Source of the DNA: Rhodospirillales bacterium
GTDB taxonomy: Bacteria; Pseudomonadota; Alphaproteobacteria; Rhodospirillales; JANQFP01
Assembly (NCBI GenBank): GCA_028277795.1
Contig: JANQFP010000052.1
Location: forward strand, 1 to 64,000
DNA length: 64,000 nt
Direction: 5' to 3'
Part shown: positions 2,949 to 22,639 of the stretch, one piece after another
Position numbering within the stretch: position 1 is the first letter of the stretch
How the letters are laid out: the number at the start of each line of letters is the position of its first letter
The notes under the pieces: generated by a model
Databases searched by the model: none
What the model was told of the DNA's origin: nothing
Seen by the model: only the letters and a program-made list of their open reading frames with translations
Program-made: the position numbers and the translations under genes

Positions 2949-3402
2949 TTATTCCTATAAAATGTGACAAAATACTTATTTCTCGCTCCCCTCCGGAGCC
3001 GGGGTGCCACCGCGGCTGGCGTGTCGCAAATGGGAAGGATGCAGGCCATTGTTTTCAAATAATTTCTGCGGATCGTGCTGACGAATGCCGACATCCGCTG
3101 ACATTTCTAGGGGCAGGCCGTCGTTCCTATCGTGGCGCGGTCCCAAAACGCGTGCGCAATCAGTCCGTAAGCGCCGCCGGGGCGGACGGCGGCCGGTGAA
3201 CCGGGCGTCGCAAACGTCAGGGCCAGTGTCGCAAATGTCCGCGCCGGTGGCGCATGCCGGAGGCAGGCCGGCGCCATACGGCCGCGCCAATCACATCACC
3301 CACCGGGCGATCTCACGCGCAGGCGGTGGCCCTCATTCGCCCCGCCGACATGACGCCGCGCCGCGACGGCGCTTCGCGTCCCGCTTCGAAGGCGCGCCGG
3401 CG
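2949..3402. other. intergenic region without a convincing gene
   Basis: About 450 bases between the PEP-CTERM gene and the end of the COQ9 gene. The left part is AT-rich like its neighbour and the right part becomes GC-rich. The octamer GTCGCAAA occurs three times (near 3023, 3208 and 3230), twice within about 25 bases. Open frames crossing the region look like antisense noise. I see no RNA gene or terminator with a T-run. Confidence 0.5.
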
Positions 3403-4044
3403 TCAGGAGGCGGCGCGGCGGGGCCGGCGGGGCATGCGGGAGCCGGGCAGGGCCCGTGCGAAGGCGTGGGCGATGCGGCCCTTGAGGCCGGGGAGCTTGA
3501 GAACGTCGCCCAGGCGCCGGTCGAGGAAGTCCCAGGTGTCGGCGAAGCCCTCGGACTCGTCGGCCAGCCAGAACAGGACCGTCGCCGTGTACACCGGCAG
3601 CAGCAGGCCCCGCTTGGTGTAGAAACTGAAATCCGTCGACGTGTCGCCGGCGGCGTACCAGATGGCGTTCACCGTCCTGAGCGTGATGCGGGTCGCCAGG
3701 GCGGCATTCTGGGGCATCGAAAGGAAGGCGCCGGCGCGGCGCACCGCCTCCCGCTGGGCCCCGTTGGACTCCAGGCGCACGCGGATGGCGGCGGAGACCC
3801 GCTCCTTCACCCGCATGGTGTCCAAGGGCATGGCCTCGAGCGCGGTCATCATCCGGCGGTCGGCGAGGTCGGCGAAGTGGTCCACCGCCTCGGTCATGCC
3901 GCTGGGAAAGGCGCGCAGGGCGTCGTCGTTCCCCAGGCCGGCGTCGGCGGCCCCGGCCTGCAGGGCCTTCCACGTCCAGCCGTCGAAGGCCACGTGGGGC
4001 AGCGTCGCCGAGATGATGGTGTCGCGCAGCTCTTGCGGGTCCAT
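3403..4044 (-). CDS. COQ9-family ubiquinone biosynthesis protein
   Basis: A 213-aa cytosolic or membrane-peripheral protein of the COQ9 family, which in eukaryotes binds lipid and assists the COQ7 hydroxylase in ubiquinone synthesis. It is found mostly in alphaproteobacteria and mitochondria. Family hallmarks are the N-terminal AFDGWTWKAL, a TetR-like helical body, then RTVNAIWYAAGDTSTDFSFY followed by YTKRG and a C-terminal FLDRRLGDV. A strong ribosome site, GGGAGGACGGC, ends directly before ATG 4044, which fixes the start. It lies 81 bases downstream of peptide deformylase on the same strand. Confidence 0.88.
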   Translation of the reverse strand: MDPQELRDTIISATLPHVAFDGWTWKALQAGAADAGLGNDDALRAFPSGMTEAVDHFADLADRRMMTALEAMPLDTMRVKERVSAAIRVRLESNGAQREAVRRAGAFLSMPQNAALATRITLRTVNAIWYAAGDTSTDFSFYTKRGLLLPVYTATVLFWLADESEGFADTWDFLDRRLGDVLKLPGLKGRIAHAFARALPGSRMPRRPRRAAS

Positions 4045-4067
4045 GCCGTCCTCCCTGTGGAAATTCG

Positions 4068-4077
4068 AATGATTATC
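4068..4077 (-). promoter_or_regulatory. possible Fur/Irr-like half box before the COQ9 gene
   Basis: Read on the minus strand the sequence is GATAATCATT, matching ten consecutive bases of the classic Fur-box consensus. It lies 24 to 33 bases before the COQ9 start codon. The flanks do not continue the palindrome well, so this may be only an AT-rich -10-like promoter element. Confidence 0.2.
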
Positions 4078-4125
4078 GTTTTGCCCAACACATACCCCGT
4101 GACGGCCCCGATTGCCACCGCAACC

Positions 4126-4731
4126 TCAACCGGCCGCCGCGGGCGCCTCCTCGTCGGCGGCGGCGCCGTCGCCGTCGGGCGTGCCGTCGCCGCGCATCAT
4201 CTCCTCGGTGAAGCCGAGCAGCGACAGGTCGGGCATGCGCATGGGATAGAGGATGCCGTCCAGGTGGTCGCACTCGTGCTGGACGACGCGGGCGTGGAAG
4301 CCCGTCGCCTCGCGGTCGATGGCGGCGCCGTCGAGGCCCGTGCCGCGATAGCGGATGTGGGTGTGCCGCGGCACGGCGCCGCTCAGCCCGGGCACCGACA
4401 GGCAGCTCTCCCAGGCCCAGGACACGTCCTCGCCCACCGGGTCGATGCGGGGATTGACGAGGACCGTCAACGGCACCTCGCCGGTGTCCTCGTCCAGGCC
4501 GGCGGCGCGGTAGCGCCCGGAGGCGGCGCGGGCGGCCGGCACCCGGAAGATGACCACCCGCGCCGGCACGTGGACCTGGGGCGCGGCGAGCCCGACGCCG
4601 CCGGCGTCCTCCAGGGTGTCGATCATGTCGGCGACCAGGCGGGCGACCTCGGGCGCTCGGGGGTCGTCCACCGGGTCGGCGGCGCGGCGCAGCACCGGAT
4701 GGCCCATGCGGGCGATCTTGAGGATGGCCAA
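4126..4731 (-). CDS. def: peptide deformylase
   Basis: Removes the N-formyl group from nascent proteins using a metal ion (201 aa). All three family motifs are present: motif 1 GVGLAAPQV, motif 2 ESCLSVPG, and motif 3 QHECDHLDG, whose two histidines and the motif 2 cysteine bind the metal and whose glutamate is catalytic. Motif 2 has Ser where the canonical EGCLS has Gly. A longer open frame extends to 4920, but its extra N-terminus is unlike the family. TTG 4731 gives the usual start (LAILKIARMGHPVL) and is preceded by AGGGAG. The C-terminal tail is Ala/Asp/Glu-rich. It may be a second, PDF-like paralogue; the genome's fmt-linked def is not in this window. Confidence 0.87.
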   Translation of the reverse strand: MAILKIARMGHPVLRRAADPVDDPRAPEVARLVADMIDTLEDAGGVGLAAPQVHVPARVVIFRVPAARAASGRYRAAGLDEDTGEVPLTVLVNPRIDPVGEDVSWAWESCLSVPGLSGAVPRHTHIRYRGTGLDGAAIDREATGFHARVVQHECDHLDGILYPMRMPDLSLLGFTEEMMRGDGTPDGDGAAADEEAPAAAG

Positions 4732-4884
4732 GGTGCGCGTCTCCCTGTGGTGGATGGGGTGGCGGACGGCCGGCGGCGGCGTGCGCGGCCGTCGGCGGGC
4801 CTTCACAAGCCGGGGGTGATATGGTAGAAGGCGTGCCCTCTTGACCGCTTCATATGGTTTCGACTGCGAGGAGAACAACCCGCC

Positions 4885-5088
4885 GTGCAAGTGATCGTCC
4901 GCGACAACAACGTCGATCAAGCCCTCAAGGCCTTGAAAAAGAAAATGCAGCGTGAGGGCGTCTTCCGCGAGATGAAGCTGCGGCGGAGTTACGAGAAGCC
5001 CTCCGAACGCAAGGCCCGCGAGAAAGCCGAAGCCATCCGCCGCGCCCGCAAGCTGGAGCGCAAGCGCCTGGAGCGCGAGGGCTTCTGA
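4885..5088 (+). CDS. rpsU: 30S ribosomal protein S21
   Basis: Small basic ribosomal protein of 67 aa that helps the 30S subunit pair with the Shine-Dalgarno sequence. [20 protein letters not shown] at the N-terminus and [20 protein letters not shown] are typical of S21, and length and lysine/arginine content fit. The start is GTG 4885 with GAGGAG about 11 bases ahead. It is divergent from def with about 150 bases between the two starts. Confidence 0.96.
5014..5031 (+). repeat. 18-base exact repeat, copy 1 (inside rpsU)
   Basis: The 18 bases from 5014 to 5031, encoding AREKAE in S21, recur exactly at 5247-5264 in the non-coding stretch after rpsU. The copies are in the same orientation 233 bases apart, and similarity fades just outside the match. 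Confidence 0.7.
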
Positions 5089-5543
5089 GCCGCGGCGGGG
5101 CGGGGCTCGTGAGGCCAGCCGCCATGACGCGAGTGCTAAATAGGCCTGCCGCCGACGGCAACGTCATCCGCGAAGGCGAGGCCAGCAAGGGACCCATGGG
5201 ACGCGCCGAAACGGAGCGTGTCCCTGTCGCGACAGAAGAAAATATAGCCCGCGAGAAAGCCGAAAACGTACAAGCCGTCCGTCTCGGCGCGTTGGTGTCA
5301 GACGCGTGCGGCGTCGTCAACTCGGGAATGCCAGACCTCGCTTCGAACCCCGCGCACCTCGCGGGTTTCGGCCGCGACGCTGACCGCAGTCATTGAAATT
5401 CGACTGCTGTTCGGCGTCGTCGATCGGGCCAGCGTGATTGCCTGCCCTTCACCCTTCACCTTGGTGGCTGGCCAGAACGGGGCGCTGATGCTTGCCCAAT
5501 ACCCCCGCGATCAATTAGCGACCATGAGAGGGAATCCGGATTC
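5089..5543. other. intergenic region after rpsU, probable gene remnants
   Basis: About 455 bases with no convincing gene. A frame from 5109 to 5396 is open (95 codons) but looks non-globular, lacks a good ribosome site and resembles no family I know. It includes the second copy of the 18-base rpsU repeat at 5247-5264. I looked for a tRNA or permuted tmRNA because of a TTCGAACCCC stretch near 5342, but found no acceptor stem, CCA end or tag sequence. Confidence 0.5.
5247..5264 (+). repeat. 18-base exact repeat, copy 2 (after rpsU)
   Basis: Exact match to 5014-5031 inside rpsU, in the same reading phase of the open frame that spans it. It may mark a partial duplication of the rpsU 3' part, now degraded. 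Confidence 0.65.
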
Positions 5544-6326
5544 GTGACCTCTTCTGAAATGCATGTGAAATCGCTTGTTTATCGGATCGAGCACGGGGAC
5601 CACGTAGATTACGACGATGCCGGCCCCGAACAGCTCGATTTCGAGGAATTCTCGGTTAGCCTCGAACGGAACCAAGCATTGTTCTCATTAAAGGTGCACT
5701 ACTCTGACGTAAGATCAGCCCAAGCTGCGGTCGAGCGGTTCCTCGACGCATGGGAGGTGTTATCAGGACTTGACCATCAGCCTCGCGAACTTGAGCTCGT
5801 TTACGAGGACGCAGTAATTGTTAGTCGGAGCCCCGAGCAATCTGATTGCATGATTGTTCCCGTGAACGCTGCTGAACTGGAGTTCCGAGGTATGGAGATC
5901 GGCGTTCATGTCAGTCGAAAGATATACCCAAATCCTCCGAGGGGTTTCGAGGTAACCCCGGATGTCAGATCTATGTATGACCGCTACGTACGTTTCCGTT
6001 TAGGGAAAGAAAATTTGGCGTCGATGGCGTATTTTTGCTATACGGTTTTTGTATACAGTGTTCCAAAAGGGAAGGGTCAGCAAACAAAGGCACAAAAATA
6101 CTACGGAGTAGAACGAGATATACTACACAATATTGCGAACTTGTCATCAAGAAAAGGAGGAGGTGAGGCTCGAAAGCGTGACGGCGTGAACGAACCGTAC
6201 ACGGCGAAAGAACGTATTTGGCTTGAAGCAGCAGTCAAAGCACTCGTCCGCCGGGCCGGCGAACGCGCAGCGGATGCCGACGCAACGCTACCCGAAATCA
6301 CCATGACGGCCCTGCCGCCACTATGA
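5544..6326 (+). CDS. orphan hypothetical protein (260 aa)
   Basis: A soluble protein of 260 aa that I do not recognise. It has no signal peptide or membrane helix. The first half is acidic and strand-rich (IEHGDHVDYDDAGPEQLDFE). The middle carries a Tyr/Arg-rich part (SMYDRYVRFRLGKENLASMA), and the C-terminal third is basic with KGKGQQTKAQKYYGV and RKGGGEARKRDG. The start is GTG 5544, with GAGAGGGA upstream; ATG 5559 is an alternative. Base composition is clearly lower in GC than the flanking core genes, and it stands alone between rpsU and a toxin-antitoxin pair, so horizontal acquisition is likely. The Tyr/Arg-rich and lysine-rich parts could bind nucleic acid, but that is a guess. Confidence 0.7.
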   Translation: MTSSEMHVKSLVYRIEHGDHVDYDDAGPEQLDFEEFSVSLERNQALFSLKVHYSDVRSAQAAVERFLDAWEVLSGLDHQPRELELVYEDAVIVSRSPEQSDCMIVPVNAAELEFRGMEIGVHVSRKIYPNPPRGFEVTPDVRSMYDRYVRFRLGKENLASMAYFCYTVFVYSVPKGKGQQTKAQKYYGVERDILHNIANLSSRKGGGEARKRDGVNEPYTAKERIWLEAAVKALVRRAGERAADADATLPEITMTALPPL

Positions 6327-6428
6327 GGTTCCGAGTTGTCATTGTACGGAAACAGCAAGCACAGCTTGTCGCAGCGATTGGCCAATACGACGAATGCTAT
6401 CAATCGATCGCTGTATCTTTGGGGTGGG

Positions 6429-6929
6429 TCACGCCAACAGGAGCCGACGCAGGTCCTTGGTGAGAAGGAACAGGTGCAGCGGGTCGGTCGGTGACGGCAT
6501 GAACCCGAAGTGCTCATAGAAAGATCGGGCCGCATCGTCCTTAGCGTGGACGGCCAGGGCGCGGATGCCGGCTATGTCGGCGGCCTGGACGGTGCGGCGC
6601 ATGGCGTCCTTGAGCAGGCCTGCACCGACGCCGCGGCCTTGCCATGCCACATCGACGGCGAGCCGCGCCAGCACCATGAGGGGGACCGGGTGGCGGGCCA
6701 GCCCCTTGACCAGGCGCTCGGGCGCGGCGTCGTAACGCACCTCGCCGAACACCAGGGTGTGGAACCCGATGACCGTGGCCGCCGCGAGGCCTACGTAGGT
6801 CTGGGAGGCGTTGGCCGACTGGCTGGGCAGGGCGAAACGCAGCAGGAAGCGATTGAGAGCCTCGTGGCCGCAATCGAATGCGTCGACCGGGTGGTGACGG
6901 GCCAGCTTCTCGACGGCGAGGGCCGTCAT
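6429..6929 (-). CDS. GNAT-family toxin (TacT/AtaT-like tRNA acetyltransferase)
   Basis: Acetyltransferase of 166 aa, the size of TacT/AtaT toxins, which acetylate the amino group of charged tRNAs and stop translation. The acetyl-CoA loop reads WQGRGVGAGLL, and the family's catalytic tyrosine lies in SFYEHFGF. The N-terminal FDCGHEALNRFLLRFA (the 'F-DC-G-LN-FL' pattern) is typical of this toxin group rather than of metabolic GNATs. It overlaps the upstream DUF1778 gene by the four bases ATGA (6926-6929), the standard antitoxin-toxin order. Substrate tRNA cannot be read from the sequence. Confidence 0.88.
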   Translation of the reverse strand: MTALAVEKLARHHPVDAFDCGHEALNRFLLRFALPSQSANASQTYVGLAAATVIGFHTLVFGEVRYDAAPERLVKGLARHPVPLMVLARLAVDVAWQGRGVGAGLLKDAMRRTVQAADIAGIRALAVHAKDDAARSFYEHFGFMPSPTDPLHLFLLTKDLRRLLLA

Positions 6930-7216
6930 TTCGTGTCGGTGGTCTCGAAGATGCTGGGCTCGCGCAGCAGGCGCTCGAGGCGGGCGTGGTCGCGGGGCGG
7001 CGCGTCGAGGGCGGCCATGAAGGCTTCCCAGCGGGCGGCGTCGAGGCCGAAGGCCCGGCGGTCCGGCAGGGTCTCCTCGGCCCGGGCGAGCGCGCTCTCG
7101 ACGACGAACTCGCTGACCGACCGCCGCGCCGCTGCCGCCGCCGCCTGCAGCGTCTTCTTCGCCTGCGGTGTCAGACGCAGGTCGAGCTTCTCGGAGCGTG
7201 TGGTCGGTGCGGGCAT
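6926..7216 (-). CDS. DUF1778 (TacA-like) antitoxin
   Basis: A 96-aa ribbon-helix-helix protein expected to bind its own promoter through the N-terminal half and neutralise the GNAT toxin through the C-terminal half. The DUF1778 core is visible as TRSEKLDLRLTPQAKKTLQ, then AAAAARRSVSEFVVESAL. The start ATG 7216 is taken because GGGAG lies just ahead of it; an in-frame ATG at 7237 and a longer frame to 7270 lack this support. The toxin begins inside its last codons, so the pair is probably translationally coupled and autoregulated. Confidence 0.87.
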   Translation of the reverse strand: MPAPTTRSEKLDLRLTPQAKKTLQAAAAAARRSVSEFVVESALARAEETLPDRRAFGLDAARWEAFMAALDAPPRDHARLERLLREPSIFETTDTK

Positions 7217-7328
7217 GGCCGTCTCCCTTTTTCGCATGACAGGGACAATCCTACCAAGGCCGCCCGACAATGTCAGGACATTTCGTCGGCGCGGCAGCGC
7301 GAGACGATTGACGGTCTCGCAACCACCC

Positions 7329-7763
7329 TCACGCCGCCCCTTCCACGTCCATCACGCTGCCCGGCTCGGGTCCGCGGGCGAAGGCGAAGCCCTCGTCGGC
7401 CCAGCCGGTGATGCCGCCGATCATCTCCTTCACCGGGCGGCCCAGCCGCGCCAGCTTGGCCGCCGCCTTGTTGGCCCCGTTGCAGTGGGGGCCGGCGCAG
7501 TAGACGACGAACAGCGCATTGTCCGGCCAGTCGGTCATGCGCCGCTCGGTGATCTTGCCGTGGGGCAGGTTGACGGCGCCGGGCACGTGGCCCTGCGCGT
7601 AGAGCTGCGGGCTGCGCACGTCGAGGACCACGAAGTCCGTCTCGCCGCGGGCCAGGGCGTCATGGACGTCCCAGCAGTCGGTCTCCAAAGCGAGCCGGCG
7701 GGAGAAGTGGGCGAGGGCATCCTCCGAAGGGGCCGCCGGCACCTCCGTCACGTTGTTGGGCAT
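7329..7763 (-). CDS. rhodanese-like sulfurtransferase domain protein
   Basis: Single rhodanese domain (144 aa) that would carry sulfur as a cysteine persulfide. Family motifs are VVLDVRSPQLYAQGHVPGAV in the first half and the active loop VVYCAGPHCNGA, with the first Cys as the likely nucleophile and a second Cys four residues on. It ends with the usual GGITGWADEG. It sits 30 bases downstream of the malyl-CoA lyase gene on the same strand, so the two are probably cotranscribed; no functional link is evident. Confidence 0.88.
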   Translation of the reverse strand: MPNNVTEVPAAPSEDALAHFSRRLALETDCWDVHDALARGETDFVVLDVRSPQLYAQGHVPGAVNLPHGKITERRMTDWPDNALFVVYCAGPHCNGANKAAAKLARLGRPVKEMIGGITGWADEGFAFARGPEPGSVMDVEGAA

Positions 7764-7793
7764 GGCAGGCCCTCCGTTGTTTGGGCCGGTCCG

Positions 7794-8837
7794 TCAGAAC
7801 TCGTACTGGGCCGCCAGGTCGGGGTCCTTCTGAGCCACCAGGCGGGCCAGGTCGACGATCACCTTGGCCTGCTTCCAGGTGGCGTCGTCCTGCATCTTGC
7901 CGTCGATCATGGCGACGCCGGTGCCGTCGGGCATGGCCTCCAGGATCTTCTTGGCGAACAGCACCTCCTTGACGTCGGGGCTGAACACCCGCTTGGCGAT
8001 GTCGATCTGGGCCGGGGCCAGGGACCAGGCGCCGGTGCAGCCCAAGAGGAAGGCGTTGCGGAACTGGGCCTCGCACGCCGCCTCGTCCTTGATGTCGCCG
8101 AAGGGGCCGTAGAAGGCGCGCAAGCCGCTGGACACGCAGGCGTCGACCATGCGGGCCACGGTGTAGTGCCACAGGTCCTGCTGGGAGAACGCGCGGTCCT
8201 CGGTCCCCTCCACCGGGTCGGCCAGCACCCCGTAGAAGGGGTGTCCGCCGCCGACGCGGGTGGTCTTCATGCCGCGGGACGCCGCGAGGTCGGCCGGGCC
8301 CAGGCTGAAGCCGTGCATGCGCGGGCTGGCGGCGGCGATGTCGGCCACGTTCTTCACCCCCTGGGCAGTCTCCAGGATGGCGTGGATGAGGATGGGCTTC
8401 GTTACCTCGTGCCGGGCCTCCAGCAGGGCCAGGTACTGGTCGACGAAGTGGATGTCCCACGGCCCCTCCACCTTGGGGATCATGACCACGTCCAGCTTGT
8501 GGCCGACGGCGGCGATGATCTCGGTCATGTCGTCGAGGAACCACGGGCTGTTGAGCGCGTTGACCCGGGTCCACAGGGCGGTGTCGCCGAAGTCGGTGGC
8601 CGATGCCACCTCGATGAAGCCGGCCCGCGCCGCCTCCTTGGCCTCGGCCGGGATGGCGTCCTCCAGGTTGCCGAGCAGGATGTCCACCTGCTTGGCCATG
8701 TCGGGGACGCGCGCCCGGATCTTCTCGATGTGCGGGGGGAAGAAATGGATCATGCGCTCGGGCCGCACCGGCAGCTCGCGCACCGGCTCTGGCGCGCCGA
8801 TGGCCAGGGGCTTGTAGAAGTTGTTGGGCAGTTTCAT
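7794..8837 (-). CDS. mcl: malyl-CoA / beta-methylmalyl-CoA lyase, Chloroflexus type
   Basis: HpcH/HpaI-aldolase/CitE superfamily lyase of 347 aa. It begins [20 protein letters not shown] and contains GNLEDAIP (residues 56-63), [20 protein letters not shown] and [19 protein letters not shown]. From memory these blocks closely follow the Chloroflexus aurantiacus enzyme, which cleaves malyl-CoA, beta-methylmalyl-CoA and citramalyl-CoA in the 3-hydroxypropionate cycle. The other common alphaproteobacterial malyl-CoA lyase (Rhodobacter Mcl1, about 320 aa) looks quite different. In this organism it could serve glyoxylate and propionyl-CoA assimilation (ethylmalonyl-CoA-type routes). Other pathway genes are not in the window, so the route is inference. 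Confidence 0.88.
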
Positions 8838-9525: not shown

Positions 9526-10842
9526 TCAATGAATGCACGCGGCTCCCCATGCGGCAGAGATATCGCATGCAAACCTGTACATCTCCGAAATTAGTCTAAA
9601 ATCAAAAAAACCTAACAAAAGGTAAAAACAATACCCTACACCAATCACGACCAAAACCCCAAAAATAAATGAAATTATCAGTAGCACAATCGCCATGGTG
9701 TAATCTTCTTTTATCACTCTTTCGGCGATATCTCTCTTCTTGCTACCCGGAAATATAACCATTGGGTAGGTGCTTACAGCAAAGGAAAGGTGAAACACTG
9801 TGGGAACTAGGTTGGTAAGAATCATTAATGTGAACCATAAACCCTCCGCTCCAAAAGGGTTTTGTGCCGCTGCTCCCAAAATTGGCGCGTAATTGTAAGT
9901 CAGGCCAACATCAAAGTACGAAAGAAATATGTTAGTCGCCTGCAATCCACCAGAGAGAGCGGCAGGAACCAAAACCAAAAGCGTAATAGCGAAAAACGTG
10001 TCGAAAATCACGATATGAGTAAAAAAACGCAGAACGGAATGTTTCCCTCTTAGCGAATTTGCAAGTTTTCTGCTTATAGCCCAAGAAATCCAATCAAAAA
10101 ATCCATTTAACAAAGATAATAATGTTCCAAATCCAAATATTCCTAAAAAAGCAGCGATCGCGATATTTGATCCTCCAAAAAAAGAAGTGAACAAGGAGAT
10201 TATTAGAGAAGAACACCCTAATGCAACTATAGCAAATCCAGAAATTGTTATTCGACTGGATATTACTCCAGCAAAAATGAACGCCGCAAGACCAATGCTA
10301 ACCCCAATGGGGAATGCAGCAGTTTTGGGCGCCCCTCCGAAAATAATAGTTGCTATAACACTAAAGGTTGAGACTAAAAACGCACCAATTAAAATAAGAA
10401 AATTCTTTTTAATCCCGTCTTCTTTATTGTTGATTTTTCTCCATAATAACACAGACACGCCTAGACAAAAAGCAATAGAAAAAAACCCGAGTAAACGGTC
10501 TGTGGACTCTTGTATTGGAAATACGTGTATATCAAATATTTTCCCGTTGTATCCAAATACCCATGCGATTACAAAAAATAAAAAGCTATATGATGTGCCA
10601 ATTATTATACATCTATCTAGCGCTCGCATAGAAAAAGGTGATGAATAAAACCTTTGAATTACATCAAGGCAGTAGTTCAAGCTAGAATAATATGATTCTT
10701 CAATTGTATTGTTCGTCAAATATTTTGCAAACGACTTGCGTCTCTCTGGATTCTCTGAAAGCAACCCGCGGGCAATTGGAAATACGCCAATCAATATTGA
10801 TATAATCAAGGTTATTACAAAAAACAATACATCTCGATCCAT
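9526..10842 (-). CDS. multi-pass membrane protein of unknown function in an AT-rich island
   Basis: A 438-aa integral membrane protein with about ten hydrophobic helices; the first is at residues 5-25 and the last near 385-415. A soluble loop of about 50 residues after helix 1 contains KSFAKYLTNNTIEESYYSSL. I recognise no transporter or enzyme motif. Its codons are strongly AT-rich (many AAA, ATT, TTT), unlike every neighbour, and it is the only substantial gene of the island between the two copies of the beta-lactamase gene end. The ribosome site ATAGGAAGCAG precedes ATG 10842, and a promoter-like TTGATT, 17 bases, TAATTA lies just upstream, so it appears self-sufficient for expression. Signs of horizontal transfer are strong; the function is open. 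Confidence 0.75.
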   Translation of the reverse strand: MDRDVLFFVITLIISILIGVFPIARGLLSENPERRKSFAKYLTNNTIEESYYSSLNYCLDVIQRFYSSPFSMRALDRCIIIGTSYSFLFFVIAWVFGYNGKIFDIHVFPIQESTDRLLGFFSIAFCLGVSVLLWRKINNKEDGIKKNFLILIGAFLVSTFSVIATIIFGGAPKTAAFPIGVSIGLAAFIFAGVISSRITISGFAIVALGCSSLIISLFTSFFGGSNIAIAAFLGIFGFGTLLSLLNGFFDWISWAISRKLANSLRGKHSVLRFFTHIVIFDTFFAITLLVLVPAALSGGLQATNIFLSYFDVGLTYNYAPILGAAAQNPFGAEGLWFTLMILTNLVPTVFHLSFAVSTYPMVIFPGSKKRDIAERVIKEDYTMAIVLLIISFIFGVLVVIGVGYCFYLLLGFFDFRLISEMYRFACDISAAWGAACIH

Positions 10843-11243
10843 TCTGCTTCCTATTCTTGCTATAATTAGACATTAAATAGGATAAAATCAAATGGGGTGT
10901 GGAATTAAATTGGTTTTGAGTTCATAATAACAATCGTTTATATTGTTTATGTATAACAATAGGAATATTTATTTGTGGCCATCTCTGTATATTCTAAAGT
11001 TTGTGCATTTCGCAATGTTTGTTTTTTTTCGTGTTGAGGGTTCTGTTCTTATTAGGAAGAATTATTTAATTCCTTGGCGCGAGATGGAGAAGGCGAGGGT
11101 TTTTTTGCGGCTATCCGTACCTTTGGTTCTGGCATGTCCGAGGTAGTAAGCAAGTTAGGCGACAGCAGGTCGGGAAAAGTGGCTGAGTTTATGCAGTTGG
11201 GTCGAAATTATTCAAGTGTTGAGGGTGAAAAAAAAGGGCTTTT
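10843..11243. other. AT-rich intergenic part of the island
   Basis: About 400 bases of AT-rich DNA. The left end holds the ribosome site and probable promoter of the minus-strand membrane protein gene. A plus-strand frame at 10943-11146 is open but looks random and has no ribosome site. Close to the right end, at about 11228-11246, an A-run, GGGC and T-run form a small hairpin that could end transcription of the beta-lactamase-family gene and of anything arriving from the left. No integrase, transposase or terminal inverted repeat is visible. Confidence 0.5.
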
Positions 11244-12743
11244 TTAGTGGAAGAAGAAGATTTGTCCCGCCGAAAACGGATAGGTCGGGCCATCGGCCAA
11301 GGGGGTGGCGAGATGGGTGACCGGGCCGTCGGCGGGGCCGTGGAATGCGACCGCGAGGCCGCGGCGCAGGGGCCAGGCGGTCTCGGGCACGCGCCAGGTG
11401 TCGCCGGCCACGTGCTCGAGGGCGAAGGAGATGGTGTGGAGGGTCCCGGCAAGCGTGTAGCTGTTTCCCGCGCCGGTCACGCGGATGCGCATGGGGCCGT
11501 AAACCGGGTGGGTGTAGGTGCCGGCGTAGGCTTCAATGGGATGTGATGGTGGCGGGTTCCCGGGTGCCGGCGGCAGGTCGGGGGGCGGAGGAACGGGCTC
11601 GCCGACCCGCAGGCGCGCCACCCAGTCGACGGGCTCCAGGCCCAGCAGGCGATCGAAGACGGACCGGGCCACCGCCGCCGGTACCCGGTTGCGGCCCGAC
11701 AGATTTGTCAGCACGACGACCCCCAGCCCGTCGTCGGGCAGGAAGGCCATCAAGGCGGCGTAGCCGTCGATGACTCCCGGATGGCGAACCAGACGCCGAC
11801 CCCGGTAGGTGGTCCCATAGAAACCCATGCCGTAGTGGCGCGGGCCCAGCTCCGGATGCGGGGAACGGCCGGGCAGGGCGACCTGAGGCATGATCATGGC
11901 GCGGGCGCTGGCCGCGCTCAGGAGGCGCCGGCCGTCGTGCACGCCGCCGGCCAGGTGGAAGCGCAGCCAGCGGGTCATGTCCTCCAGGTTGGCATAGACC
12001 GCCGCCGCCGGCCCGATGGCGTCTGTGTCGCGGAGCGGTAGGGTGATCCGGCCCTCGGCGCCCATGAAGAACGGGGCGGTCCGGTCGGCGGCGGCCTGGA
12101 ATTCGGCCAGCGTGAGCACGGTCCGGGTCATCCCGAGGGGCGCCAGGATGCGGCGGCGCACCAGGTTCTCCCACGTGGTGCCGGCCAAGCGGCCGGCCAG
12201 GACGCCGGCGGCCGCAACCATCAGGTTGTTGTACTGGAACACCTGGCCGGGGTCGTGGGTCGGTCTTAGGTGCCGCAGGCGGTCCATCAACTGGTCGCGG
12301 GAATACGCATGCAGGTACCAAAGCGCGTCGTGGCGGGGCAGGCCGGTCCGGTGGGTGACCAGGTCGCGCGGCGTCACGGCGGCGGCGGGCTCCTCGAGCC
12401 GGAACCCTGGCCACTGGTCCCGCACCGGCCGGTCCCAATCGAGCCGGCCCTCGTCGGCCAGCATGGACAGGGCCGTCACGGTGAACGACTTGGCGATGGA
12501 GCCGCCCGCGAACAGGGTCCGGGGTGTCACGGGCTGACCGCCCGGACGGCGCACCCCGTAGCCCTTCAACAGCATCACCCGGCCGTCCCGGACCACGGCC
12601 AGGGCCAGGCCGGGCACCTGGCCGCGCGCCATGGCATCGGCCACAACGGCGTCGACGTCGCCCAGGTCGGCCCGCGCCGCCGTCGCGGCGACGACGACGG
12701 CCAGGGTCAGGGCGGCCAGCGGCCCCCGCAGCTCAACCCCCAT
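11244..12743 (-). CDS. class C beta-lactamase-family serine hydrolase with DUF3471-like C-terminal domain
   Basis: Exported serine hydrolase of 499 aa (beta-lactamase/transpeptidase-like fold). A signal peptide covers about residues 1-26 (LAALTLAVVVAATAARA). The active-site SxxK is seen in GGSIAKSFTVTAL, the second motif YxN in FQYNNLMVAAAG, and the HxG-type third motif in RHPGVIDGY. A C-terminal beta-rich domain starts near IEAYAGTYTHPVYGPM. Many such proteins are esterases or D-amino-acid peptidases rather than antibiotic-resistance enzymes. ATG 12743 overlaps the end of the SpmAB gene by 11 bases, implying translational coupling. Its 3' end is duplicated at 8985-9240. Confidence 0.87.
   Translation of the reverse strand: MGVELRGPLAALTLAVVVAATAARADLGDVDAVVADAMARGQVPGLALAVVRDGRVMLLKGYGVRRPGGQPVTPRTLFAGGSIAKSFTVTALSMLADEGRLDWDRPVRDQWPGFRLEEPAAAVTPRDLVTHRTGLPRHDALWYLHAYSRDQLMDRLRHLRPTHDPGQVFQYNNLMVAAAGVLAGRLAGTTWENLVRRRILAPLGMTRTVLTLAEFQAAADRTAPFFMGAEGRITLPLRDTDAIGPAAAVYANLEDMTRWLRFHLAGGVHDGRRLLSAASARAMIMPQVALPGRSPHPELGPRHYGMGFYGTTYRGRRLVRHPGVIDGYAALMAFLPDDGLGVVVLTNLSGRNRVPAAVARSVFDRLLGLEPVDWVARLRVGEPVPPPPDLPPAPGNPPPSHPIEAYAGTYTHPVYGPMRIRVTGAGNSYTLAGTLHTISFALEHVAGDTWRVPETAWPLRRGLAVAFHGPADGPVTHLATPLADGPTYPFSAGQIFFFH
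11266..11527 (-). repeat. direct repeat, right copy (in the intact gene)
   Basis: The part of the intact hydrolase gene that corresponds to the fragment at 8985-9240. The interval between the copies, about 2.0 kb, is the AT-rich island. Confidence 0.8.
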
Positions 12744-20299: not shown

Positions 20300-22639
20300 T
20301 CAGTCGGCGATGCGGGCCAATCCGACGATGACGAAATAGGCTAGGACGTATCCGGCGAGTTGGTGCACATAGAAGTAAAAGCGCGGCCACCGCCCTTCGA
20401 CATCGATATCGTAATGACACTCGCGCAGTTTGACCACCGGCAGCAGCATGTCGAGGCTATAGCCGATGGCAAAAGCCGAGCCGAGCCGTTTGCCTCCGCG
20501 GGAGCGCCAAAAGATAATGGTTCCAATGGTCCAAAGCAGGAGCATCCAGCCCAGGGCGTTGTAGAGCCGATAGCCATGGCCGGTGACCGCCCAGTTGACG
20601 GTCAACCGCACCCATTCGCCGCCGGTTTCGCCGGAGCGTTTACGCTCCAAGCTGGCGTAGAGGATGTCGTCCGCCTTGTCGTCGTTCCCGGCGGCGCGGA
20701 GGATCTTGGCCAACTGCTGGTATGGTTGCGGGGAGTAGTCATCCTGCTTTTTCAGCCAGTCGATCCACCACTTGGTTTCCCGCCGCGCCATGTCGCTCCC
20801 CTCGTCGGCCTTGAAACCGCCGAGGTGGTCATACTTGAAACCGTCGAGCTCTAGTTTTTCCGGCCAAGCGTCGGGCAGATCCTGCAGGGTCGAGGCTCCC
20901 GCGTTGCGGAGGATGAGCTTTGCCCCTGGATTCCACTTCGCGGGTCCGTGGGTCGACGATCCAAGGGCTAGCTCGCCACTGATCTGGGTACCGCTGAGAT
21001 CTAAACTGGAGAACTGGGCCCCTGAGACATCGAGGTTGCCCGACACATGCACAAACAAAAGATCGACAGATTTGGAGAACTGGGCTTCTCGCAAAAACAA
21101 GTCGCGACCTACCTTCGTTCTTTCCATATGCACCTTGCCAGAGAATTTGGAACGAAACGTAGCCAATTGCCCACCTACCTCGGCTCCGAGCAGCCAGACG
21201 TCAACGAACTCGGATTCGCGGCTCATTAACAAATTCCCACCTAACTCCAAGCTCTCCATGTTCAGGAGGCCGCCAAATGTGGAGCCTTCCATATCCAGGA
21301 CTCCACCGACCCTGGTGCCCTGGAGCCTGACGTCAGCGAACTCAGCCCCTCCGCGCATGAACAAGCTCCCATCCACCTCCGCTCCGTCCATATCCAGCGC
21401 GCCAGTGAATGTAGAGCTCTGTACTTCAACGTTTCCTAGCACCTTGGCACCGAAGAGCCTGACATCAGCGAACTTTGCCTTGCGTCGCATGAACAGACTC
21501 CCTCCGACCTGCATGCCATCCATTACCAGCGCGCCGGAAAACTCGGAGCCGTCCATGAGCACGTTTGCGTCTACCCTAACGCCGCTAAGCCTGACGTTGG
21601 CGAACTTGGATTGACCGGACATAATCAGGCCCCCTCCAATCTCCGCTCGATCCATAGTCAGAGTGCCCGCAAATGTGGAACCGCGTATCTCCAGGACGCG
21701 GCCCACCTTGGCGTCAAGAAGCGTAACGTCGGCGAGCTGCGCCGTGCCGACCATGAACAGATTCCCATTCACCTCCATTCCCGCCATGCCCAAAGTGCCT
21801 GCGATCGTAGAGCCTTCGATTTCAACGTTTCCGCGCACCTTGGAATCGAAGAGTCTGACGTTGGAGGTTTTTGCCTTGTTTCGCATGGACAAAATTCCAC
21901 CGACCTGCGTACGATCCATAAACAGCGTGCCGGCAACGTTGGAGCCGTCCATTGTCACCCCCCCACCAACCTTGGCATCGATGAGCCACACCTCGCCAAA
22001 CTTGGCACCACCGCTCATGAATAAATTCCCGCCTATTTCCGCTCCGTAAGTGTTCAACACGCCCGTGAACCCGGAACCAACCATAGACAGGTTCCCACCT
22101 ACTTTGGCGCCGATGAGTTCGACGTTTGTGAAACTGGCCTTGCCACGCATCAGCAGGTTCCCGCTGACCTCTACTTCGTTCATGTTCAATGTGTCAGCGA
22201 ATTCGGAGGATTCGAGAGAAAGATTCGCTGCGAACTTGGCACGGGCGAAAGAGACCTGAGCGGAGAAGCGAGAACGATCCAGCCAAAGATCGTGGTCAAT
22301 TCTTGCGCCTTCCAGGTCCAAAGGCTCTTGGAAAACAGCGCCCACAATGCGCACGCCAATGCGCGTGGTAGCTGAGCGCCAAGGGTCGTGGAGCAGTATT
22401 GTTTCAAGGAACTCGGGACGCAGTTCAGGGCTCAGGTCGGCTGAGCGGAGATCGGCGATCTCCCCAACGCACACCCGGTCCCATACCCAATGCTCCACTT
22501 GAGTCCATTTAGAATGCGGGGCCGTCCGACAAGGGCCGTCGGGAAGTGCTGGGCCACCGTTGCTTAGAGCTGGGGCGACGGTCACCATGGAAACAAGCGC
22601 GCCCGCCAACAAGGCCGCGTGTAACGCGCGCAAAAGCAT
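20300..22639 (-). CDS. exported beta-helix protein with eight exact-length 44-residue repeats and C-terminal membrane helices
   Basis: A 779-aa protein with a signal peptide (MLLRALHAALLAGALV...) and a long right-handed beta-helix-like repeat region. Residues 151-502 are eight units of exactly 44 residues; the consensus resembles LxMDGAEVGGxLFMRGGAKF, then ADVRLxGAKVGGNVxMxGST, then FAGT. A degenerate ninth unit follows. Each unit splits into two 22-residue rungs. After the helix comes a helical stretch (PYQQLAKILRAAGNDDKADD), common in repeat proteins of this type, and then two or three membrane helices ending YVLAYFVIVGLARIAD. The repeats should face the periplasm, anchored by the C-terminus. 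ATG 22639 has GGAGGT just ahead. Function unknown; a scaffold or binding surface is inference. Confidence 0.8.
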   Translation of the reverse strand: MLLRALHAALLAGALVSMVTVAPALSNGGPALPDGPCRTAPHSKWTQVEHWVWDRVCVGEIADLRSADLSPELRPEFLETILLHDPWRSATTRIGVRIVGAVFQEPLDLEGARIDHDLWLDRSRFSAQVSFARAKFAANLSLESSEFADTLNMNEVEVSGNLLMRGKASFTNVELIGAKVGGNLSMVGSGFTGVLNTYGAEIGGNLFMSGGAKFGEVWLIDAKVGGGVTMDGSNVAGTLFMDRTQVGGILSMRNKAKTSNVRLFDSKVRGNVEIEGSTIAGTLGMAGMEVNGNLFMVGTAQLADVTLLDAKVGRVLEIRGSTFAGTLTMDRAEIGGGLIMSGQSKFANVRLSGVRVDANVLMDGSEFSGALVMDGMQVGGSLFMRRKAKFADVRLFGAKVLGNVEVQSSTFTGALDMDGAEVDGSLFMRGGAEFADVRLQGTRVGGVLDMEGSTFGGLLNMESLELGGNLLMSRESEFVDVWLLGAEVGGQLATFRSKFSGKVHMERTKVGRDLFLREAQFSKSVDLLFVHVSGNLDVSGAQFSSLDLSGTQISGELALGSSTHGPAKWNPGAKLILRNAGASTLQDLPDAWPEKLELDGFKYDHLGGFKADEGSDMARRETKWWIDWLKKQDDYSPQPYQQLAKILRAAGNDDKADDILYASLERKRSGETGGEWVRLTVNWAVTGHGYRLYNALGWMLLLWTIGTIIFWRSRGGKRLGSAFAIGYSLDMLLPVVKLRECHYDIDVEGRWPRFYFYVHQLAGYVLAYFVIVGLARIAD
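21134..22189 (-). repeat. eight tandem 132-base units encoding 44-residue repeats
   Basis: Unit starts fall every 132 bases from 22189 down to 21134 with no insertion or deletion; the amino acid pattern is conserved while the bases have diverged, so the array is old and under selection for length. A ninth, weaker unit extends to about 21002. Confidence 0.85.

Follow-up and report, generated by a model that had tools for sequence, protein, structure and literature searches.

The window, the whole stretch of 64,000 nucleotides that was analyzed, carries on its reverse strand a gene of 779 codons that lies between secA and, downstream of the gene, an RND adaptor and pump. Its features are as follows, each with the evidence for it in brackets:

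20300..22639, minus strand: whole gene, 779 aa, ATG start (ATG at 22639, stop at 20302-20300)
22562..22639, minus strand: signal peptide, residues 1-26 (judged by eye; hydrophobic segment 3-19; low pLDDT)
22370..22561, minus strand: N-terminal cap, residues 27-90 (consensus of 14 relatives; AlphaFold helices 47-57 and 75-83)
20960..22363, minus strand: beta-solenoid, residues 93-560, about 21 coils of 22 residues (PF13576; AlphaFold; AlbG Z 16.2)
21134..22189, minus strand: eight gapless 44-residue (132-base) units, residues 151-502 (self-identity by lag; unit identities)
20582..20806, minus strand: helical linker, residues 612-686, family motif PQPYxQLAxxLRxxG (motif conservation; AlphaFold)
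20504..20566, minus strand: TM1, residues 692-712, after a GYG-type motif (here GHGY, 687-690) (hydropathy; AlphaFold)
20420..20479, minus strand: pore-helix-like segment 721-732 and filter-like LPVVKLRE 733-740 (AlphaFold; conservation)
20306..20392, minus strand: TM2, residues 750-778, with invariant Gly763 (AlphaFold; conservation)

The gene and its beta-solenoid rod

The encoded protein is the sole copy in its genome. Both GC (58%) and GC3 (0.69) of the gene lie below those of the adjacent secA (69% and 0.97), which suggests that it is of foreign origin and was acquired horizontally. Elsewhere in the window, which averages 68% GC, positions 10001-12000 fall as low as 0.49 and may be a further foreign stretch. 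No gene partner was shared among the 10 neighbors of 9 relatives that were scanned (for 2 of the 10, Pfam gave no match at E 1e-5). A deltaproteobacterial relative (L083) has a SIR2 gene directly upstream (3036-3851) and a PD-(D/E)XK nuclease gene directly downstream (5781-8441), both on its own strand, and a classical pentapeptide gene (PF00805, E 6.5e-43; L084 1600-2787) lies directly upstream of a relative from Dadabacteria.

The initial annotation had called the protein exported, and residues 1-26, with a hydrophobic core and with small residues where cleavage is likely, bear this out as judged by eye. In the cap that follows, Cys37 and Cys57 are the majority residues among 14 aligned relatives; they are present also in some relatives that lack a signal peptide, and a disulfide or a metal site is possible. 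The same annotation had described eight indel-free 44-residue units spaced every 132 bases from 22189 to 21134, and this proved exact, with each unit an alternating pair of 22-residue coils. In register the units share a mean pairwise identity of 46% (27-59%), against 21% at a shift of 22 residues; they are 60% identical at the nucleotide level, and Tandem Repeats Finder did not pick up the repeat in the DNA. Self-identity across residues 91-570 at lags of 44, 22 and 11 residues was 0.378, 0.192 and 0.186, respectively, compared with 0.077 ± 0.013 and a maximum of 0.126 at lag 44 in 2000 shuffles. Because identity at lag 44 is twice that at lag 22 and far above the shuffles, we conclude that two unlike 22-residue coils alternate.

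AlphaFold (14 sequences, full length) gave a mean pLDDT of 89.2, mostly 94-98 in the solenoid, and showed an unbroken beta-helix of about 21 coils, with strands between about residues 96 and 558, that extends past the eight units. The long regular beta-helix that had been foreseen is thus what the model contains, but the proposed count of about sixteen rungs was too low. A second expectation, that the pattern is unlike the A[D/N]Lxx of pentapeptide repeats, was borne out in part: the classical profile PF00805 scored 10.1 bits, under its cut-off of 20.2, and the period is 22/44 with no self-identity peak at 20, the length of the classical coil of four pentapeptides. The repeat does not, however, stand apart from known families, since Pentapeptide_3 (PF13576) matched the window protein with 74.5 bits (cut-off 27; E 7.8e-21) and all 14 aligned relatives at E ≤ 0.1. 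A new repeat family was rejected on the strength of these matches, and the repeat alone is ordinary, a known Pfam family. Pentapeptide families were the only ones that Pfam found in the protein, and no ligand domain of the substrate-binding-protein type was among them. Structural neighbors of the rod are beta-helices in general (Z 16-20); by sequence there was no solved relative, the best protein match being 4rly at E 0.85 and none falling below 0.07 with profiles. The pentapeptide fold proper is a right-handed quadrilateral beta-helix; for the window protein the models predict a beta-helix with high confidence. A knotted solenoid fold from one bacterial group has been described as triangular (PMC13123833).

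The 44-residue superperiod varies across the family, with lag-44 identity reaching 0.43 in L187, 0.40 in L208, 0.34 in L080 and 0.31 in L088 and L162; at 0.06-0.09 in L083, L161, L079, L159 and L092, it is absent. Coil number, a rough estimate, ranges from about 8 to about 24 across 20 clade members (21 were measured, and L092 was dropped since its cap motif was not found). At the start of the open frame of L186 (G968:C22), two adjoining 44-residue units are almost identical, a recent duplication, so lengthening of the rod in duplicated 44-residue steps is still possible.

The C-terminal membrane module

Two hydrophobic segments (695-711 and 756-772) lie at the C terminus, where the initial annotation had placed a membrane anchor. 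The protein does appear to be membrane bound, but the anchor is not a simple one: AlphaFold predicts TM1, a re-entrant helix and TM2 in residues 690-779 (pLDDT 94), the arrangement of a P-loop pore. Both AlphaFold runs, the full-length one and a model of residues 612-779 built from 54 sequences (mean pLDDT 93.8, pTM 0.79), place after TM1 a 12-residue helix that is too short to span a membrane, then an unwound LPVVKL and a long TM2.

The best 50 VIA-align matches listed for the shorter model were 49 P-loop channel pores, including NaK, KvLm, MthK, Kir2.2, KcsA, SthK, MloK1 and Slo2.2, together with HalA, at Z 9.5-11.9, although the program cautions that for helical folds a Z below about 13 may reflect just a common arrangement. 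Forty-three of these 50 superimposed at 1.8-3.0 Å over 78-86 residues within positions 76-168 of the model. Six NaK rows exceeded 11 Å because the aligner also pulled in the linker, and HalA was the only listed match to span the whole 168-residue model (3.9 Å, Z 9.7, 160 residues). With the full-length model, Foldseek matched NaK chains at probability 0.99-1.00 and TM-scores of 0.60-0.68 by target length, and the short model likewise matched NaK and KcsA; the E-values of these channel matches were 0.1-2, none being below 0.001.

At the level of sequence, the K+ filter TVGYG (TXXTVGYG) is absent and the window protein has LLPVVKLR in its place, with the proline present in 54 of 54 sequences. 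Gly763 is equally invariant (54/54), Tyr727 is found in 51 and Asp730 in 50, the other four having Glu. The position that would correspond to the filter tyrosine varies among G, D, E, S, K, N and R in the same 54 sequences, and since it is not conserved no selectivity can be argued for. A gap-free overlay on KcsA would pair its Trp68-Ser-Val-Glu71 with Tyr727-Ser-Leu-Asp730 and its filter residue Thr75 with Pro734, and Gly763 would sit at the place of the channel hinge glycine. PF07885 (Ion_trans_2) did not match the window protein at E ≤ 10, and two profile-profile comparisons with 30 K+ channel pores were not significant (probability 1.8 and 4.2). Among 39 members, the C-terminal domain had no convincing match in Pfam or NCBIfam, the weak ones starting at E 0.0029 and touching 1 to 3 members each. 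Because sequence-level homology to channels is not significant, the claim of a channel is one of fold. We hold the predicted P-loop fold (helix, re-entrant pore helix, helix) with fair confidence and the proposal that the module forms a pore with less, and we make no claim of K+ selectivity.

Distribution, signal peptides and predicted orientation

With the whole protein as query, matches were found in 23 of 150 genomes of the order, and with the C-terminal 220 residues in 12 of 289 genomes of the class, the source genome being included in each count. Among 72,556 plasmid records, 37 matched, and there the relatives go under the names hypothetical protein, oxidoreductase and pentapeptide repeat-containing protein. 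When one genome per species was scanned for the motif, 132 relatives emerged, of which 80 were kept; the commonest hosts were Streptomyces and Nonomuraea. Relatives occur in Nitrospirales, Scalindua, Dadabacteria, Proteobacteria, Zixibacteria, cyanobacteria, Bacteroidota and Planctomycetota. The 54 aligned sequences share, with few departures, QPYxxL, G[YHF]G before TM1 and a C-terminal YSxDxxxP block. Among the matches listed from open PubMed Central, no paper dealt with this architecture or with opposite orientations in such a family.

A sister group (L171-L174, L176 and L177, from the class of G661) consists of pentapeptide proteins with GYGERALRP or GYGERVLRP before TM1, an FLKPD stretch at the place of the pore loop where the read reaches it, and a membrane part without a Pfam name. 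Profile comparison of linker and TM1 relates it to the present family (probability 96, E 3.6e-9). As a bridge to true K+ channels the group was rejected: no TVGYG intermediate was found, and PF07885 was absent from the proteins checked, namely five from or close to this group (L170, L171, L172, L174 and L177) and four actinobacterial relatives.

Orientation was approached through a charge score, the number of Lys and Arg in the 15 residues after TM1 minus that in the C-terminal tail. We scored 96 complete proteins and used a hand-picked, less redundant set of 54, then 60, with some loci of the set of 54 re-fetched whole; L085, L086, L087, L089/L166 and L186 were omitted, their N terminus being missing. 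Signal peptides were called by eye with hydropathy as an aid, L078 being a less sure negative as it has no ATG ahead of the cap. The score was positive in every member with a signal peptide (19/19, from a total of 60), and among the 41 members lacking one it was negative in 25, zero in 10 and positive in 6. This association has a Mann-Whitney p of 3e-9, a value that ignores kinship; a kinship-aware test has 2 usable pairs on supported branches, or 6 when every branch of the best tree is allowed, too few independent pairs for it to reach significance. The six exceptions (L109, L010, L013, L016, L019 and L020) all fall outside the 22-row clade of the window protein, and within the supported 12-row clade that holds it the pattern fits 7/7 members with and 5/5 without a signal peptide. 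No hidden signal peptide was seen in other frames of the five clade members lacking one. Predictions written beforehand for three loci held in both testable cases (L187 and L188), the third being cut by a contig end; L206, L207 and L208, for which there was no prior written prediction, also fit. L188 (G926:C1, about 3500-5120) is split over two reading frames, with the signal peptide in one and the membrane module in the other, either a decaying gene or a sequencing error.

When the positive-inside rule is applied to these flanking charges, the loop between TM1 and TM2 is predicted to be cytoplasmic in members with a signal peptide and mostly outside in those without. Signal-peptide state changes 6 times on the best tree and 5-7 times in bootstraps, with at least 2 changes forced by well-supported branches. 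Together with the charge association, these changes suggest that a channel-type pore may have been inverted repeatedly across the family.

Proposed mechanism, rival readings and known systems

The protein joins a pentapeptide-type beta-solenoid, via a short helical linker, to what is predicted to be a two-helix P-loop module without the K+ filter. Its signal peptide would carry the rod into the periplasm, and a periplasmic rod would leave the pore module upside down relative to K+ channels, with the re-entrant loop facing the cytoplasm. Four subunits would then make a membrane pore, and ligand binding or envelope strain on the periplasmic rods could move the linker and TM1 and so open or close it. 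To this reading, a solenoid, linker and inverted P-loop module that together make a probably tetrameric, rod-gated pore, we assign a probability of about 0.5, with tetramer, conduction, gating and orientation all counted as inferred. What the computation itself shows is the repeat, its Pfam match, the folds as predicted, the loss of the filter sequence and the link between signal peptide and charge. More tentatively, the family may hold a P-loop pore that was flipped several times by gain or loss of the signal peptide, with the flanking charges reversed to match on each occasion, whose filter is of a new type based on an invariant proline, and whose gate is coupled to a rod that grows or shrinks in 44-residue steps.

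The closest competing reading is a dead pore: a channel-derived but non-conducting module that holds and oligomerizes the rods as a scaffold or an envelope-binding surface. This is a real possibility, if somewhat short of an even chance, as the K+ filter is lost, the place of its tyrosine varies freely, the hydrophobic LPVV comes right after the pore helix and the scanned neighbors include no conserved gene partner. What speaks against it is the near-invariance across phyla of Pro734, Asp730/Glu, Tyr727 and Gly763, which is beyond the needs of an anchor. It is unlikely that the module is unrelated to channels altogether, a hairpin of two helices with an amphipathic or re-entrant helix that is pore-like in shape alone. 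Such a view would account for the non-significant sequence matches and for Foldseek E-values above 0.1, but the best 50 structural matches listed were all P-loop pores or HalA, the 43 close ones span nearly the whole pore domain, and the TM2 glycine was in register in a weak profile match. We consider it less probable still that the rod works at the surface or in the periplasm with an incidental membrane part, in the manner of the secreted YjbI of Caulobacter, which governs the composition of the outer membrane and the sensitivity to drugs (PMC12864828). The window gene does have an RND adaptor and pump downstream of it, but the scanned neighbors differ among relatives, several relatives have no signal peptide, and the abstract on YjbI gives it no such membrane module (PMC12864828). 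Least credible is an antiphage effector, a rod-sensing pore that depolarizes the cell on infection as HalA does in Hailong. In its favor, HalA is the sole listed match over the whole 168-residue model, the distribution is patchy (23/150 and 12/289 genomes) and the composition is foreign (GC3 0.69 against 0.97 in secA). Against it, the window protein has no PADLOC family, a single weak Cas2 match (1 of 14 members, E 0.007) was taken as chance, the 10 neighbors of 9 relatives include no recognized defense system, although L083 has SIR2 and PD-(D/E)XK genes beside it, and a periplasmic rod would be an odd sensor of intracellular phage.

The interest of the rod-gated pore reading lies not in the repeat but in the proline filter of a channel-type module and in a topology that was apparently inverted more than once. 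Few intermediates are available for the proposed descent of glutamate receptors from an inverted K+ channel pore. If the reading is true, close relatives in both predicted orientations would allow the study of how a pore flips, with L080 of Scalindua, which lacks a signal peptide, and L187 of the same class, which has one, as a matched pair. The reading would further suggest what is done by the many proteins now named hypothetical, oxidoreductase or pentapeptide repeat-containing, and would name a membrane domain absent from Pfam and NCBIfam.

Compared with known systems, the rod is closest to the PF13576 proteins, through its repeat match, and to the solved pentapeptide proteins QnrB1 and AlbG (AlbG at Z 16.2, 3.4 Å over 193 residues), the latter two being resistance proteins by entry title; the window protein differs from all of these in its paired alternating 22-residue coils, about 21 in number, its signal peptide and its membrane module. 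HglK of Anabaena likewise combines pentapeptide repeats with transmembrane segments, but is described as having four of these in its N-terminal region and the repeats at the C terminus (PMC8145042). HalA of Hailong (PDB 9nyi), the listed match that takes in both linker and pore (3.9 Å), is reported to be an ion channel that poly-dA adducts of HalB block in antiphage defense (PMC13275509). There is no sequence match to HalA and no HalB-like gene beside the window gene, whose neighbors are secA and the RND adaptor and pump; the likeness makes a gated-pore role plausible and does not place the protein in defense. NaK, KcsA, MthK and KvLm have TM1, pore helix, filter position and a TM2 with its glycine in common with the module (Z 9.5-11.9), whereas the window protein has neither TVGYG nor PF07885, would carry its invariant proline at the first filter position, and is predicted to lie in the reverse orientation.

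Fusing a signal peptide to Kcv in a synthetic construct is reported to set the inverse orientation (PMC12332018), and GluR0 and the ionotropic glutamate receptors are described as having an outside sensor and an inverted K+-channel-type pore, an inverted K+ channel pore being their proposed origin (PMC6385376). Unlike GluR0, the window protein has a beta-solenoid rather than a substrate-binding domain as its putative sensor, has no K+ filter where GluR0 has one, and carries its pore module at the C terminus and not inserted in the sensor. Its signal peptide and flanking charges would nevertheless agree with the same overall plan, an outside sensor on an inverted pore.
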